Shown: positions 2,745 through 8,608 of the stretch, piece by piece
How positions within the stretch are numbered: position 1 is the stretch's first letter
Layout: each line of letters opens with the position of its first letter
The notes under the pieces: generated by a model
Databases searched by the model: none
Seen by the model: only the letters and a program-made list of their open reading frames with translations
What the model was told of the DNA's origin: nothing
Assembly (NCBI GenBank): GCA_025458735.1
Contig: JALORV010000063.1
Span: forward strand, 1 to 8,608
Direction: 5' to 3'
Length of the DNA: 8,608 bases
Source of the DNA: Burkholderiaceae bacterium
GTDB taxonomy: Bacteria; Pseudomonadota; Gammaproteobacteria; Burkholderiales; Burkholderiaceae
Position numbers and translations under genes: made by a program

Positions 2745-4811
2745 CTACCGCGCGAAGGTGACGAACAGCGTGATCATCGCCAGCAGGCCGAGGATCATGC
2801 CGAACGCATAGTGATAGATGTAGCCGGACTGCAGCAGCCGCGACAGTGCGGCCACCCAGCCGACCACGCGGGCGCTGCCGTTGACTGCCAGGCCGTCGAT
2901 CAGGCGCACGTCGCCGACTTTCCACAGCAGCTGCCCGATCGCCCGCGCACCGCCCGCGAACACCACCTCGTTGATGCGGTCGAGGTAGTACTTGTTCTCC
3001 AGCAGCCGGTGCAGGCCGGCAAAGCGGCGCTTAAGCGACTCCGCCAGGTCGGGGCGCAGCAGATACAGGTAGGCCGCCAGCAGGACCCCGGCGAGCGCGA
3101 GGTACGTCGGTGGGCTGGCGAAGCCGTGCAATCCCATGCCCACGGCGCTGCGCACGTCCTCGGCCAGACGCGCCATTGCCGGGTGGCGGCTGGCGTCGAC
3201 GAAGATCGAGCTCGCGAAGAAGTTGCCGCCCAGCAGCGTCTCCAGCGTGACGAAGCCGATGACGAGCGAAGGGAACGCCAGCAGCACCAGCGGCACCGTC
3301 ACGACATTGGGCGACTCGTGCGGTTCGCCGTGGTGGTCGTCGCCGTGATGGTGATCGCCAGGATGGTGGCTGCCATGGTGAGCATCTGCATCGGGGCCCG
3401 TCCCAGGGTGCCCGTCGTGATGCCCGCCTGCATGCGCGGCGTGCTTCCAACGCGGCTTGCCATGAAAGACAAGGAAGAACATCCGGAACGAGTAGAACGC
3501 GGTGATGAACACGCCAAGCGTCAGCGCCCAGAACGCGACGGTCGCGCCTGCCTGGCCCGCCTTCGCGGCGGCGCCGGTTGCAATGAGGATCGAGTCCTTC
3601 GAGTAGTAGCCGGACAGGAACGGCACGCCGATCAGCGCCAGCGAGCCGATCAGCGCCGTGATCCAGGTGACCGGCATGCGGCGCCACAGCCCGCCCATTT
3701 TGCGGATGTCCTGCTCGTGGTGCATGCCGATGATGACCGAGCCAGCCGCCAGGAACAGCAGCGCCTTGAAGAAGGCGTGGGTCATCAGGTGGAAGATGCC
3801 GGCCGCGTAGGCGGAAGCCCCGAGGGCCACCGTCATGTAGCCGAGCTGCGACAGCGTCGAATAGGCCACCACGCGCTTGATGTCGTTCTGCACGATGCCG
3901 AGCACGCCCATGAAGAACGCCGTGATCGCGCCGATCACGATGACGAAGCTCAACGCCGCGTCGGACAGCTCGAACAGCGGCGACATGCGCGCCACCATGA
4001 AGATGCCGGCGGTCACCATCGTGGCCGCGTGGATCAGCGCCGAGATCGGGGTCGGGCCCTCCATCGAGTCCGGCAGCCAGACATGCAGCGGAAACTGAGC
4101 GCTCTTGCCCATCGCGCCGATGAACAGGCAGATGCAGATCACCGTCATCAGCAGCCACGGCGTGCCCGGCAGCAGTTCGATCGTCTTGCCCGCCAGCGCC
4201 GGCGCGGCCGCAAAGACCTCCGCGTAGTGCATCGTGCCGAAGGTCGCGAACACCAGTCCGATGCCCAGCACGAAGCCGAAGTCGCCGACCCGGTTCACCA
4301 GAAACGCCTTCAGGTTGGCGGCGATCGCGGTCGGCCGCTTGAACCAGAAGCCGATCAGCAGGTAGGAGACCAGGCCGACCGCTTCCCAGCCGAAGAACAG
4401 CTGCAGGAAGTTGTTGCTCATCACCAGCATCAGCATGCTGAAGGTGAACAGCGAGATGTAGGCGAAGAAGCGCTGGTAGCCCGGATCGTCGGCCATGTAG
4501 CCGACGGTGTAGATGTGCACCATCAGCGACACGAAGGTGACCACCACCATCATCAGCGCGGTCAGCGGATCGATCAGGAAGCCGATCTCGAGCTTCAGTC
4601 CGCCGACGACGGCCCAGGTGTAGATGGCGCCGTCGAAGGTGTTGCCCCTGAGCACGTCGGCCAGGATGACGAACGAGGCGATGGCCGCCACCAGCACACC
4701 GGCGATGGTCACCGTGTGCGCGCCGGCGCGGCCGATCACCCGTCCGCCCAGCCCGGCGACCAGCGCGCCGACCAGCGGCGCCAGCGCCGCAAGCAGGTAG
4801 ATCTTCTGCAT
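2745..4811 (-). CDS. nuoL: NADH-quinone oxidoreductase subunit L
   Basis: NuoL is the distal antiporter-like pump of complex I and carries the long lateral C-terminal helix. From the ATG at 4811 it has 688 residues, within the usual range. Seen: MADDPGYQRFFAYISLFTFSML (about 106-127, split across helices); the TM5 glutamate E143 in LFFGWEAVGLVSYLLIGFW; the TM7 lysine K236 in GAMGKSAQFPLHVWLPD, followed by SMEGPTPISALIHAATMV; QNDIKRVVAYSTLSQLGYM; and K405 in FLSGYYSKDS. A histidine-rich loop at about 457-498 carries 15 His in 42 residues, followed by the C-terminal lateral helix and last transmembrane helix. An in-frame ATG 9 bases upstream, at 4820, would add Met-Pro-Ser. I prefer 4811 because MQKIYLLAALAPL resembles the family N-terminus as I recall it. 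Neither start has a good Shine-Dalgarno site, and 4820 touches a hairpin. The reading frame is open far upstream, but that extension antisense-free region is spacer and out-of-frame nuoK, not protein. Confidence 0.96.
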   Translation of the reverse strand: MQKIYLLAALAPLVGALVAGLGGRVIGRAGAHTVTIAGVLVAAIASFVILADVLRGNTFDGAIYTWAVVGGLKLEIGFLIDPLTALMMVVVTFVSLMVHIYTVGYMADDPGYQRFFAYISLFTFSMLMLVMSNNFLQLFFGWEAVGLVSYLLIGFWFKRPTAIAANLKAFLVNRVGDFGFVLGIGLVFATFGTMHYAEVFAAAPALAGKTIELLPGTPWLLMTVICICLFIGAMGKSAQFPLHVWLPDSMEGPTPISALIHAATMVTAGIFMVARMSPLFELSDAALSFVIVIGAITAFFMGVLGIVQNDIKRVVAYSTLSQLGYMTVALGASAYAAGIFHLMTHAFFKALLFLAAGSVIIGMHHEQDIRKMGGLWRRMPVTWITALIGSLALIGVPFLSGYYSKDSILIATGAAAKAGQAGATVAFWALTLGVFITAFYSFRMFFLVFHGKPRWKHAAHAGGHHDGHPGTGPDADAHHGSHHPGDHHHGDDHHGEPHESPNVVTVPLVLLAFPSLVIGFVTLETLLGGNFFASSIFVDASRHPAMARLAEDVRSAVGMGLHGFASPPTYLALAGVLLAAYLYLLRPDLAESLKRRFAGLHRLLENKYYLDRINEVVFAGGARAIGQLLWKVGDVRLIDGLAVNGSARVVGWVAALSRLLQSGYIYHYAFGMILGLLAMITLFVTFAR

Positions 4812-4819
4812 CGAGGGCA

Positions 4820-4852
4820 TCAGTGCCCGCCCGGCCGCCCGAAGGGCACTGA
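4820..4852. repeat. Inverted repeat abutting the nuoL start region
   Basis: TCAGTGCCC (4820-4828) pairs perfectly with GGGCACTGA (4844-4852) across 15 bases. On the mRNA the 3' arm of the stem ends with the A of the upstream in-frame ATG at 4820 and lies 9 bases before the ATG at 4811. An alternative small stem, GGGCA with TGCCC, would instead enclose the 4820 ATG (4814-4828 region). Any ribosome binding site for nuoL would be inside this structure, so it could limit nuoL translation. The pairing is seen; the effect is inferred. Confidence 0.55.
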
Positions 4853-4853
4853 G

Positions 4854-4868
4854 CGCCCCCGCGGGGCG
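4854..4868. repeat. Short GC-only inverted repeat
   Basis: CGCCCC (4854-4859) pairs with GGGGCG (4863-4868) around the three-base loop CGC. It lies between the previous hairpin and the one at the nuoL start. In GC-rich DNA a six-pair stem alone is weak evidence; it matters mainly as part of the cluster. Confidence 0.45.
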
Positions 4869-4879
4869 GAGCCAGGACA

Positions 4880-4905
4880 CGCGGCAGGCCCTGCGGCCTG
4901 ACGCG
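4880..4905. repeat. Inverted repeat, 10 pairs with one mismatch
   Basis: CAGGCC (4885-4890) pairs with GGCCTG (4895-4900) around the loop CTGC. After a single G/A mismatch, CGCG (4880-4883) pairs with CGCG (4902-4905). There is no T-run on either side. It is the second stable hairpin in the nuoK-nuoL spacer. Confidence 0.6.
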
Positions 4906-4917
4906 CGCCTGTCGACG

Positions 4918-4941
4918 CGGCCCGGCCTGCAAGCCGGGCCG
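4918..4941. repeat. Perfect 9-bp inverted repeat, strongest hairpin in the spacer
   Basis: CGGCCCGGC at 4918-4926 pairs perfectly with GCCGGGCCG at 4933-4941 across a six-base loop. All stem pairs are G-C, so the RNA hairpin should be very stable. On the transcribed side it is followed by GC-rich sequence, not by a U-run, so it is not a classic terminator. It could act as an RNA-stability or processing element between nuoK and nuoL. Confidence 0.7.
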
Positions 4942-4981
4942 TGGACCAGCGAACGAAGAAAGCGTGGGGGCGCATCAGTTG

Positions 4982-5287
4982 CTAGCCCTTCAGCGAATCG
5001 AGTTCCTCGACGTTGATCGTCGAGAGATTGCGGAACAGCACGACCAGGATCGCCAGCCCGATGGCCGATTCGGCCGCGGCCACCGTCAGGATGAAGAAGA
5101 CGAATACCTGCCCGTGGTAGTTGCCGAGGTAATGGGAGAAGGCGATGAAGTTCATGTTGACCGCCAGCAGCATCAGTTCGATCGCCATCAGCAGCACGAT
5201 CAGGTTGCGGCGGTTGAGGAAGATGCCGACCACGCTGATCGCGAACAGCAGCGCGCCGACGCCCAGGAACCAGGACAGCGAGATCAT
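4982..5287 (-). CDS. nuoK: NADH-quinone oxidoreductase subunit K
   Basis: NuoK is the small three-helix membrane subunit, related to MrpC, that sits between NuoJ/NuoA and the antiporter-like pumps. The 101-residue product is the standard length. The two buried glutamates of the proton path are present: E37 in [13 protein letters not shown] and E73 in [13 protein letters not shown] (E36 and E72 in E. coli). [10 protein letters not shown] and the ending [10 protein letters not shown] are also typical. The ATG at 5287 overlaps the TGA of the nuoJ C-terminal frame as ATGA and has a GAGG five bases upstream. This start is therefore well supported and suggests translational coupling to nuoJ. Coupling would be disturbed by the premature nuoJ stop about 350 bases upstream, although nuoK's own binding site may allow independent initiation. 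The gene itself looks intact. Confidence 0.97.
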
Positions 5288-5882
5288 TCGGGCCTCGCTG
5301 CGGAGGGCGGCTCGCCGACGGTCGCCGCCCGTGTCTGGCGTGCATCGTCCTCGCTGGCCATGCTGACGAGGCGGACCCGCTCGCCGCGCGTGACCCTGAC
5401 CTGCTGCGACGGGTCCTGGTGCTTGGCGTCCTTGCGGCCACGCAGCGTCAGCGCGATGGCGGCAATGATCGCCACCAGCAGCAGCGCGCCGGCGATCTGC
5501 AGCGGGAACACGTACTCGGTGAAGGTCAGGCGGCCGAGCGCCTCGATGTTGTTGGCGTTCGCGATGCCCGGCCCCGGCTGGTTCAGGCCCTGCCACCTTG
5601 GCTGCGACAGCACCAGCCACATCTGCAGCACGATCAGCGCGGCCACCAGTCCGCCATCATCACGACGAACAGGAACAGCACCATCACCGCGCCGACGTAG
5701 ACCAGCACCAGGGCGATGGCCAGGAACTCGGCCTGCAGCATCATCCAGAGGCAGGCGGCCGAGAAGAAGGCGAGTACCAGGAACAGCACCGCGTGGACCG
5801 GGTTGCGCGCGGTGATGACGCGCAGCGCCGCCGCCAGCAGGATGCCGGAGAAAAGCAGGAATAAAGCGACTTGCGCACTCAT
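5284..5882 (-). pseudogene. nuoJ: NADH-quinone oxidoreductase subunit J, frame broken by internal deletion
   Basis: NuoJ is a five-helix membrane subunit whose TM3 is a conformational gate between the quinone site and the pumps. Two parts in different frames are seen. Part 1 runs from the ATG at 5882 (MSAQVALFLLFSG) through ALRVITARNPVHAVLFLVLA and the gating helix [15 protein letters not shown] (residues 62-76). It then reads only ADWWPR and stops at 5634-5636. Part 2 is in the -1 frame from about 5652, reads [16 protein letters not shown], then [20 protein letters not shown], then a basic tail with QDPSQQVRV, and ends at the TGA at 5284. The parts total 76 + 122 residues. The LDIN...FW..LP-type loop that I recall following VVMM in relatives is absent, so the simplest reading is a deletion of 3n+1 bases (about 50-60). 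It may be a real mutation or a sequence error. A GTG at 5930 could extend the N-terminus by 16 residues, but that stretch does not look like NuoJ. An annotation pipeline might call 5634-5882 as a short CDS. Confidence 0.8.
5293..5296 (-). promoter_or_regulatory. Shine-Dalgarno site of nuoK
   Basis: GAGG on the minus strand ends five bases before the nuoK ATG at 5287. It lies inside the last codons of the nuoJ C-terminal frame and supports the short 101-residue NuoK over any longer reading of that frame. It is the clearest ribosome binding site in the window. Confidence 0.6.
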
Positions 5883-5975: not shown

Positions 5976-6464
5976 TTATCGGTACTTCGCGTCGGCCTCG
6001 CGGTTGGCCGCGATCTGCGCTTCGTAGCGGTCGCCAATCGCCAGCAGCATCGGCTTGGTGTAGTAAAGGTCGCCGCGGCGCTCGCCGTGATACTCGAGCA
6101 GGTCGGTTTCGACGATCGAGTCGACCGGGCAACTCTCCTCGCAGAAGCCGCAGAAGATGCACTTGGTGAGGTCGATGTCGTAGCGGGTCGTGCGGCGCGT
6201 GCCGTCGGCGCGCTGGTCGGACTCGATGGTGATCGCCAGCGCCGGGCAGACGGCTTCGCACAGCTTGCAGGCGATGCATCGTTCCTCGCCGTTGGGGTAG
6301 CGGCGAAGCGCGTGCAGCCCGCGGAAGCGCGGCGAGATCGGCGTCTTCTCTTCCGGGTACTGGATCGTGATCTTGCGGGCAAAGGCGTAGCGCCCGGTCA
6401 GGGCCAGGCCCTTGAGCAGCTCCTTCAGGAGCAGGCTGTCGAAGAACTCGCGCACGGCGCCCAT
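5976..6464 (-). CDS. nuoI: NADH-quinone oxidoreductase subunit I, 2x[4Fe-4S] ferredoxin-like
   Basis: NuoI carries clusters N6a and N6b, which pass electrons from NuoG towards N2 and quinone at the junction of the peripheral and membrane arms. The product has 162 residues, the usual bacterial length. Two ferredoxin motifs are intact: [12 protein letters not shown], with Cys63, 66, 69 and 73, and [12 protein letters not shown], with Cys102, 105, 108 and 112. The first three cysteines of each motif plus the last of the other should bind each cluster. The N-terminal amphipathic part ([20 protein letters not shown]), [18 protein letters not shown] and the C-terminal Tyr-rich [15 protein letters not shown] are typical of NuoI. 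The ATG at 6464 follows the nuoH stop after 13 bp, with a weak G-rich stretch before it. Nothing appears damaged. A 93-bp gap separates it from nuoJ. Confidence 0.98.
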
Positions 6465-6477
6465 GTCGTTGCCCGCC

Positions 6478-7566
6478 CTAGTTCCAGATGTTCCACGGCG
6501 TCTGCATCCAGACGGCGATCAGGATCAGCCATGCGAGCGTGATCGGGATGAACACCTTCCAGCCGAGCCGCATGATCTGATCGTAGCGATACCGGGGAAA
6601 CGAGGCCCGGAACCAGATGAAGAGCGACACCACGAAGAAGACCTTGGCGAAGAGCCAGAACCAGCCCGACAGCGCCACCATCCATCCCGGCAGCTCGATG
6701 CCCAGGACCCGTCCGAGATCGACCGGCGGCGCCCAGCCGCCCAGGAACATGATCACCGCCATCATCGACAGCAGGATCATGTTGGCGTACTCGGCCAGGA
6801 AGAAGATCGCGAAGGTCATGCCCGAGTACTCGACCATGTGGCCGGCCACGATCTCGCTCTCGCCCTCGACGACGTCGAACGGATGGCGGTTGGTCTCGGC
6901 GATGCTCGACACCACGTAGATCACGAACAGCGGCAGCAGCGGCAGCCAGTTCCAAGACAGGAAGGCCCAGCCGCGATCGGCGAAGAAGCCGCTGTTCTGC
7001 CGCTCGACGATCCCGGTCATGTTGAGCGTGCCCGCCACCAGCAGCACCGCCACCAGCACGAAGCCCATCGCCAGCTCGTAGCTCACCATCTGCGCCGCCG
7101 CGCGCATCGCACCGAGGAAGGAGTACTTCGAGTTCGATGCCCAGCCGGCGATGATGACGCCGTACACGCCGACCGAGGTGATCGCCATCACGTACAGCAG
7201 CCCGGCGTTGACATCCGCCAGCACGACCCCGGGCGCGAACGGGATCACGGCCCAGGCCGCCAGCGCAGGCATGATCACGATCACCGGCGCCAGGAAGAAC
7301 AGCGACCGGTCGGCCTGCGCCGGCGTGATGATTTCCTTGGTCAGCAGCTTGAAGGCGTCGGCAATCGGCTGCAGCAGCCCGAGCGGACCGACCCGGTTGG
7401 GGCCGACGCGGATGTGCATCCAGCCGATCAGCTTGCGCTCCCAGTACGTCAGGTACGCGACCATCAGCAGCAGCGGCGCAACGATGGCGACGATGCGCAC
7501 CAGCGACCACACGGCCGGCCAGGCCGCGCCCAGCGTCTCGGCTCCGAAAGCGGTCAGCGCATCCAT
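6478..7566 (-). CDS. nuoH: NADH-quinone oxidoreductase subunit H
   Basis: NuoH (the ND1 homologue) forms the membrane floor of the quinone chamber and the first part of the proton path. From the ATG at 7566 it has 362 residues, a normal length, and about eight membrane helices. Seen: [20 protein letters not shown] followed by [21 protein letters not shown] (about 39-78); [20 protein letters not shown] (about 136-155); [10 protein letters not shown]; the acidic quinone loop [19 protein letters not shown] (about 224-242), then EYSGM and FFLAEYANM; and [14 protein letters not shown] near the C-terminus (about 319-332). The stretch between VAG and EYSGM reads H-M-V where I recall an aromatic residue plus His plus V/I in relatives. 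A GTG at 7569 is an alternative start, giving a 4-base overlap with nuoG; the ATG at 7566 shares one base with the nuoG TGA. Translational coupling to nuoG is likely either way. Confidence 0.97.
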
Positions 7567-8608
7567 CACGCGGGTTCCACCTGGATCGGCCCGAACATCG
7601 CGCCCAGCGTCGCCGTCGAGGCATGGGCTGCGGCCACGCGAACGACTCCATCAGCAAGACGGTCATCGATCTGCAGGTCGAGCAGCGCGGTGGTGTCGCC
7701 CTGACGCACCCGCACCGAGGCGCCGTCGGCCAGCCCCAGCGCCTGCGCTGTCGCCGGGCTGACACGGGCCCGCGGCGGGCGCGCGTCGGCGGTTGCCTGC
7801 AGCGGCGGCGAGCGGCGCACGATGGCGTCGCTCGCATAGATCGGCACGTCCGCCAGCCGCTCGAGGCCATTGCCGGCTGCAGACACGGACGGCACCGCCA
7901 GCTCGAGCGAGGTCTCGTTCGACAGTCTGGTCGCGATCTCCGCCAGCGGCACTTCCGCACGCACTGCCTCGGGCGTGTCCTGGTCGAAGCCTGGCAGCTC
8001 GAGCAGGTTGCCGAGCACGCGCAGCACCTTCCAGCCGGGACGGGCCTCGCCCAGCGCCCGCACGGTGCCGTTGAAGTGCTGCACCCTGCCCTCGGCGCTG
8101 ACAAAGGTGCCGGCGGTCTCGGTGAACGGCACGATCGGCAGGATCACGTCGGCGACCTCCATCGCGCCGTCGCGATAGGGGGTGCAGGCAATCACGCAGT
8201 CGGCCTTTGCCAGCGCCTGCAGCGCCGCCGACGGGTTGGCCAGGTCGAACTCCGGTTCGAGGTTCCACAGCAGCATTGCGCGGCGCGGCGACTCGATCAT
8301 CGCGCGTGCATGCAGGCCACCGCCGGTCGGCTTCGCGCCTGCAAGATGTGCGCCGACGGTGTTGGCCGCCTCGGTGAGCACGCCCAGTCGAGCGCCGGTG
8401 GCGCGCGCGATCCACTGCGCCCAGGCGCGGATCTGCGCCGCCTGGGGATGCTGGACCGCGGCGTTGCCGAGCAGCACCACCTTGCGCTCGCCCGACAGCA
8501 GGCTGGCGGCGATGGCCTGATCCTGCGCCGCAGGCACCATGCCACTGGCCGGCGCCGCGATGCCGCGCGCCTGAGCCACCGCCGTCGCGATGGCGGCCAG
8601 CCGCTGAA
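7566..8608 (-). CDS. nuoG: NADH-quinone oxidoreductase subunit G, C-terminal part (5' end outside window)
   Basis: NuoG is the large peripheral-arm subunit of complex I. Its N-terminal region holds iron-sulfur clusters and its C-terminal region is a molybdopterin-oxidoreductase-like fold that has lost the cofactor's role. Only the last 346 residues are here, of a family near 770-800; the frame is open through the right edge. Visible are a Rossmann-like stretch [58 protein letters not shown], and the family hallmark [20 protein letters not shown] (near 8070-8126). After these comes a small C-terminal domain ending [10 protein letters not shown]. All iron-sulfur ligands lie outside the window, so their state cannot be judged. 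An internal GTG at 8579 begins the longest complete ORF but is not a gene start, since the protein reads on upstream as QRLAAIATA. The TGA at 7566-7568 overlaps the nuoH start. Confidence 0.95.
7577..7582 (-). promoter_or_regulatory. Shine-Dalgarno-like site of nuoH
   Basis: AGGTGG on the minus strand sits inside the last codons of nuoG, seven bases before the GTG at 7569 and ten before the ATG at 7566. It supports starting nuoH at this overlap but does not decide between the two codons. ATG is preferred only because it is the commoner start. Confidence 0.4.

Follow-up and report, generated by a model that had tools for sequence, protein, structure and literature searches.

A 55-base out-of-frame loss removes the TM3-TM4 loop from nuoJ on a Burkholderiaceae contig

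Introduction

The complex I subunit NuoJ and its counterpart ND6 form one protein family (PF00499, Oxidored_q3), in which the loop between TM3 and TM4 moves together with the rotation of TM3 between the open and closed states, as described in the sections of PMC10212512 drawn upon here. According to the same sections, this loop communicates with the TM1-2 loop of ND3/NuoA, and in E. coli a contact is found between NuoK R25 and NuoJ E84. A second body of work that bears on damaged genes of this kind concerns the records themselves, since, according to one survey, many of the apparent pseudogenes in bacteria arise from assembly (PMC11017572, consulted in excerpt).

The window, i.e. the whole stretch of DNA analysed here, is a complete contig of 8608 bases with a GC content of 67%; the protein database places the window's own NuoJ pieces on a contig of this length. 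Its nuoJ agrees with the NuoJ/ND6 family in gene order, in the sequence of TM1-TM3 and TM4-TM5 and in its place between nuoI and nuoK, but lacks two features of the family, namely the TM3-TM4 spacer of 19 residues and an uninterrupted reading frame. With the assembly-derived pseudogenes it has in common that the frame is broken at one isolated point and the gene is intact elsewhere; that survey, however, covers frameshifts and internal stops generally, and its excerpts hold no passage on losses as large as the present one (PMC11017572).

Gene organization and reading frames

The genes from nuoG to nuoN are all located on the minus strand. The C-terminal part of nuoG (7566-8606) and nuoN (3-1193) are open frames cut by the window ends, while nuoH (6478-7566), nuoI (5976-6464), nuoK (4982-5287), nuoL (2745-4820) and nuoM (1230-2735) are complete and intact, in agreement with the preliminary description, in which the visible complex I genes other than nuoJ had looked undamaged. 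The nearest genome compared (G001) has 20% of the sampled 31-mers in common with the window, and the best named record for the C-terminal part of NuoJ is the MAG Burkholderiaceae bacterium MGR_bin241 (77% over query residues 3-108).

The N-terminal piece of nuoJ (5634-5882, minus strand) begins with ATG at 5882-5880 and comprises 76 NuoJ codons encoding TM1-TM3 up to the motif VVMM, whose last base is 5655, followed by six out-of-frame codons (ADWWPR) and a TGA stop codon at 5634-5636. The remainder of the gene (5284-5652, minus strand) encodes TM4, TM5 and the tail; it reads in the -1 frame without interruption from 5652 up to a TGA of its own at 5284-5286, and this stop codon and the ATG of nuoK overlap in the sequence ATGA. 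At the junction (5654-5655, minus strand) the last base of VVMM abuts the base preceding the C-terminal part, and no single open frame runs across all five helices. The earlier reading of nuoJ as broken, with its N-terminal part ending after ADWWPR and its remainder lying in the -1 frame, is thus confirmed by the reading frames in both respects, but its statement that nothing lies between the two pieces does not strictly hold, as the N-terminal frame overruns the C-terminal part by 18 bases plus the stop codon.

The N-terminal part matches Oxidored_q3 (PF00499) with 81.3 bits when its frame is taken from 5930, and 2015 homologous proteins are found for the C-terminal part at E <= 0.001. Because both halves are NuoJ by homology, a chance origin of the two frames is excluded. 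In the database entry for the window's own C-terminal piece (P0001), the GTG at 5644-5646 is assigned as start codon.

Elsewhere in the cluster, the spacer between nuoK and nuoL (4821-4981, minus strand, 161 bases) is rich in GC hairpins formed by inverted repeats. Its DNA fold has a z-score of -3.33, with none of 200 shuffled sequences folding as well, and a search of this stretch against Rfam returned no match. The corresponding spacer consists of only a few bases in G001 and of about 170 in another relative (G017).

Size of the loss and conservation of the spacer

The distance from VVMM to the residue aligned with the first glycine of GLVAALIV was measured in homologues drawn from the best 120 of the 2015 proteins mentioned above and the best 120 of 8000 scored. 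In the first set of 120 proteins, three of which are without an anchor, the spacer amounts to 19 residues in all 117 usable homologues, and in the enlarged set of 149 proteins the same length is observed in each of the 146 that carry both anchors; the three set aside are the window's own C-terminal piece (P0001), a 5'-truncated protein (P0040) and a chimera (P0061). Since 57 bases are expected and two are present, 55 bases are missing, i.e. 3n+1. Alignment with relatives therefore places the loss inside the 50-60 bases that had been predicted, with the 3n+1 character also anticipated correctly, and the absence of the TM3-TM4 loop, likewise claimed before, is evident from the reduction of a spacer of 19 residues in 146/146 listed homologues to two bases in the window.

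Outside the spacer, the closest of the listed homologues are P0124, with 70/76 residues identical in the N-terminal and 103/115 in the C-terminal piece, P0121 (72/76 and 98/113), P0123 (71/76 and 95/110) and P0122 (68/76 and 98/111), all of which have the spacer. A single-base slip is ruled out, as 55 bases and with them the entire spacer have been lost, and natural variation of the spacer length is not seen among the 146 listed homologues.

The position of the break raises the question of whether the gene could still be functional. In a two-piece NuoJ, TM1-TM3 and TM4-TM5 would be made as separate polypeptides that assemble without the loop, the second one being putatively translated from the GTG at 5644-5646, which overlaps the first stop codon. 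The split does sit in an inter-helix loop, both pieces are conserved, and the end of the first stop codon comes 13 bases downstream of the GTG, a distance that would allow a coupled restart. Nevertheless, such an arrangement is found in no relative, the 19-residue loop being present in 146/146 listed homologues, no clear ribosome-binding site is discernible by eye ahead of the GTG, and the missing loop is the element described as moving together with TM3 when the complex changes between open and closed, and as being in contact with NuoK and with the loop region of NuoA (PMC10212512, in the sections used). A working split subunit is accordingly considered very unlikely. Joining of the two frames by a programmed -1 frameshift appears hardly conceivable: the frames do overlap by the 18 bases and the stop codon, but inspection by eye reveals no slippery heptamer of the type X XXY YYZ in the overlap, and the product would still be loop-free, with TM3 fused straight to TM4. 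Neither the split subunit nor the recoding has positive support. A NuoJ that is devoid of the TM3-TM4 loop, or split there, would not be expected to function normally.

Occurrence of the junction among relatives

The exact nuoJ junction is present in none of 300 genomes of the order, the junction pattern was not found in viral contigs, and the plasmid and phage collections gave no match. No same-species copy is included among the best-listed homologues, from a database clustered at 90%, and very near records may be absent from the collections. The NuoJ-family profile matches 288 of the 300 genomes, 287 of them with a best E-value of 7.7e-30 or lower and one weakly (G199), and 12 give no match; internal stops were read in the better rows among the matches listed. 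Within the family of G001 (67 genomes), all 18 main-type nuoJ rows span the PF00499 profile without an internal stop. The other PF00499 rows in these 67 genomes are six of a second, more distant type and a single weak one.

The second, more distant NuoJ-type gene is accompanied by nqrA in each of G001, G003, G009, G011, G018 and G024, and in G001, G009 and G011 the two share one contig, at distances of about 11, 8 and 37 kb, respectively.

Short NuoJ N-terminal proteins other than that of the window were also compared (n = 119). Of these, 118 are anchored and all 118 run into the start of the loop, which among the anchored short entries is missing only in the window. A non-NuoJ tail is counted in 42 of the 118 by ungapped comparison with near relatives of the window, a figure that is probably an overcount and does not represent a rate, as the search admitted only short proteins. 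One truncated N-terminal entry (P0150) comprises three member sequences from one contig and was counted neither way.

The one unanchored short entry of the 119 (P0175) lacks about eight residues of TM3 in frame and retains the loop. On a contig of 18603 bases, NuoJ and NuoK occur as one protein of 322 residues with both Pfam domains (P0129).

Sequence around the junction

The window is free of N, and none of its 20-, 25- or 31-mers occurs more than once. With k set to 10, 11, 12 and 14, the longest repeat found across the join measures 11 bases, and this 11-mer recurs in nuoH. Given the absence of N and of repeated 20-mers and a repeat of at most 11 bases at the join, a simple k-mer misjoin is left unexplained, and a DNA molecule carrying the deletion may well have existed. 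Slippage between direct repeats was rejected, as there is no 12- or 14-base repeat across the join.

That the junction is clean, with neither N nor long repeats, is in keeping with a genuine and recent null allele, in which the 55-base deletion would truncate NuoJ after TM3, so that complex I would neither assemble nor pump. The cell would then use another NADH dehydrogenase, the event being too recent for the operon to have decayed. The join itself counts against such an event, as relatives point to little microhomology: judged from their proteins and codons, the two sides would have about one base in common at the precise point of joining, and a (G)GAC similarity lies next to it.

A hairpin-driven loss, tried with three sequences, is not convincing. 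The loop DNA of relatives folds with z-scores of -1.67 and -1.33, equalled by 12 and 21 of 200 shuffled sequences, respectively, and the junction stretch of the window with -2.32 (4 of 200).

No decay is visible in the other genes or in either half of nuoJ, which counts against the null allele, although this cannot date a recent event. Over six relatives, pN/pS ranges from 0.29 to 0.83 for the C-terminal part of NuoJ and from 0.16 to 0.39 for the N-terminal part, the C-terminal part being variable among intact genes too. The rows of nuoN against G017, G011, G004 and G012 and of nuoM against G004, G012 and G011 (pN about 0.5) were disregarded as paralogue hits.

Origin of the deletion

Further support for a real and recent loss of complex I function comes from the wider group. 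A match to PF00146 (NuoH-type) is absent from 44 of the 67 genomes in the family of G001 and one to PF00499 from 46, and life without complex I therefore occurs in the wider group; moreover, alternatives are found in some relatives, with nqrA over the cut-off in 6/67 and the C-terminal domain of NDH-2 over the cut-off in 13/67. Owing to these many genomes without PF00146 or PF00499, and to the alternative dehydrogenases in some, the null allele is a serious rival. On the other hand, those relatives that have kept the operon possess a whole nuoJ, as seen in the 18/18 main-type rows of the family. Taken together, a real null allele is regarded as a possible cause, though not the expected one.

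The genomes without a NuoH-type match include nearly complete ones. The distribution suggests that whole genera in the family of G001 are devoid of complex I.

On balance, the probable cause is a deletion at the level of sequence or assembly, or else a minor allele captured by the contig. The source population would then carry the 55-base stretch, and the junction would be a fault of the 8.6-kb metagenomic contig, arising possibly from a closed coverage gap or from a chimeric or deleted library molecule; alternatively, the contig may have captured a minor allele. The complex I of the organism would in either case be ordinary. This reading is supported by a lesion that is single and isolated, with both NuoJ halves and the neighbouring genes open and conserved, by the constant loop length in the 146 listed homologues, by the strong NuoJ-family matches in 287 of the 300 genomes of the order and the absence of the junction from all 300, by the survey of assembly-derived pseudogenes (PMC11017572) and by comparable flaws in the same operon of related records.

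Among the latter, the contig of P0136 (6060 bases) also shows an internal loss of 3n+1 bases with a frame switch in a conserved nuo gene. Here it is NuoI that changes frame after about residue 79 and resumes about 109 bases further on, by which the second 4Fe-4S motif is lost, and the frame runs on into NuoJ. In contrast to the window, the lesion of P0136 is situated in nuoI, and its nuoJ is complete with the 19-residue spacer. In the MAG G077, which belongs to the family of G001, the frame of nuoH is likewise interrupted where a short piece is missing (L060, contig C85, around 7845-7870). This gap is marked by a run of 10 N, whereas the window junction is free of N, and the gene is 38 bases shorter still than nuoH of the window. 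In P0061 (contig of 4083 bases) a foreign N-terminus, which we take to be PstS-like, is fused to NuoJ just before TM4, near the right edge of the deletion in the window; this contig is probably chimeric. Finally, the reading frame changes within the loop or beyond it in five NuoJ entries (P0156, P0157, P0159, P0162 and P0165), all from contigs longer than 80 kb.

Other observations stand against a fault of the record, among them the lack of N and of long repeats described above. The analogies are indirect, frame-broken NuoJ relatives mostly retain the start of the loop, unlike the window, and a clean loss of 55 bases exceeds the usual sequencing indel. Of the three causes offered, with no preference, in the preliminary description, i.e. 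a recent loss of function, a mixed population and an assembly or consensus error, the evidence leans towards an error or a minor allele by analogy with the flaws in related records, and recent loss is the less favoured. Based on this analogy, a fault or minor allele is favoured over genuine recent loss.

Implications

Whether a flaw of the record or a simple recent gene loss, the lesion is nothing new in kind. A bearing on the mechanism of complex I would follow only from the unlikely split-subunit reading, according to which catalysis would not depend on the loop whose movement accompanies the open/closed transition. If the junction is an artefact, it illustrates that, in metagenomic contigs, damage to a core gene has to be backed by reads before a loss of respiration is claimed. 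If, on the contrary, the null allele is real, an early step of complex I loss would have been caught, in a wider group in which many genomes lack the enzyme.
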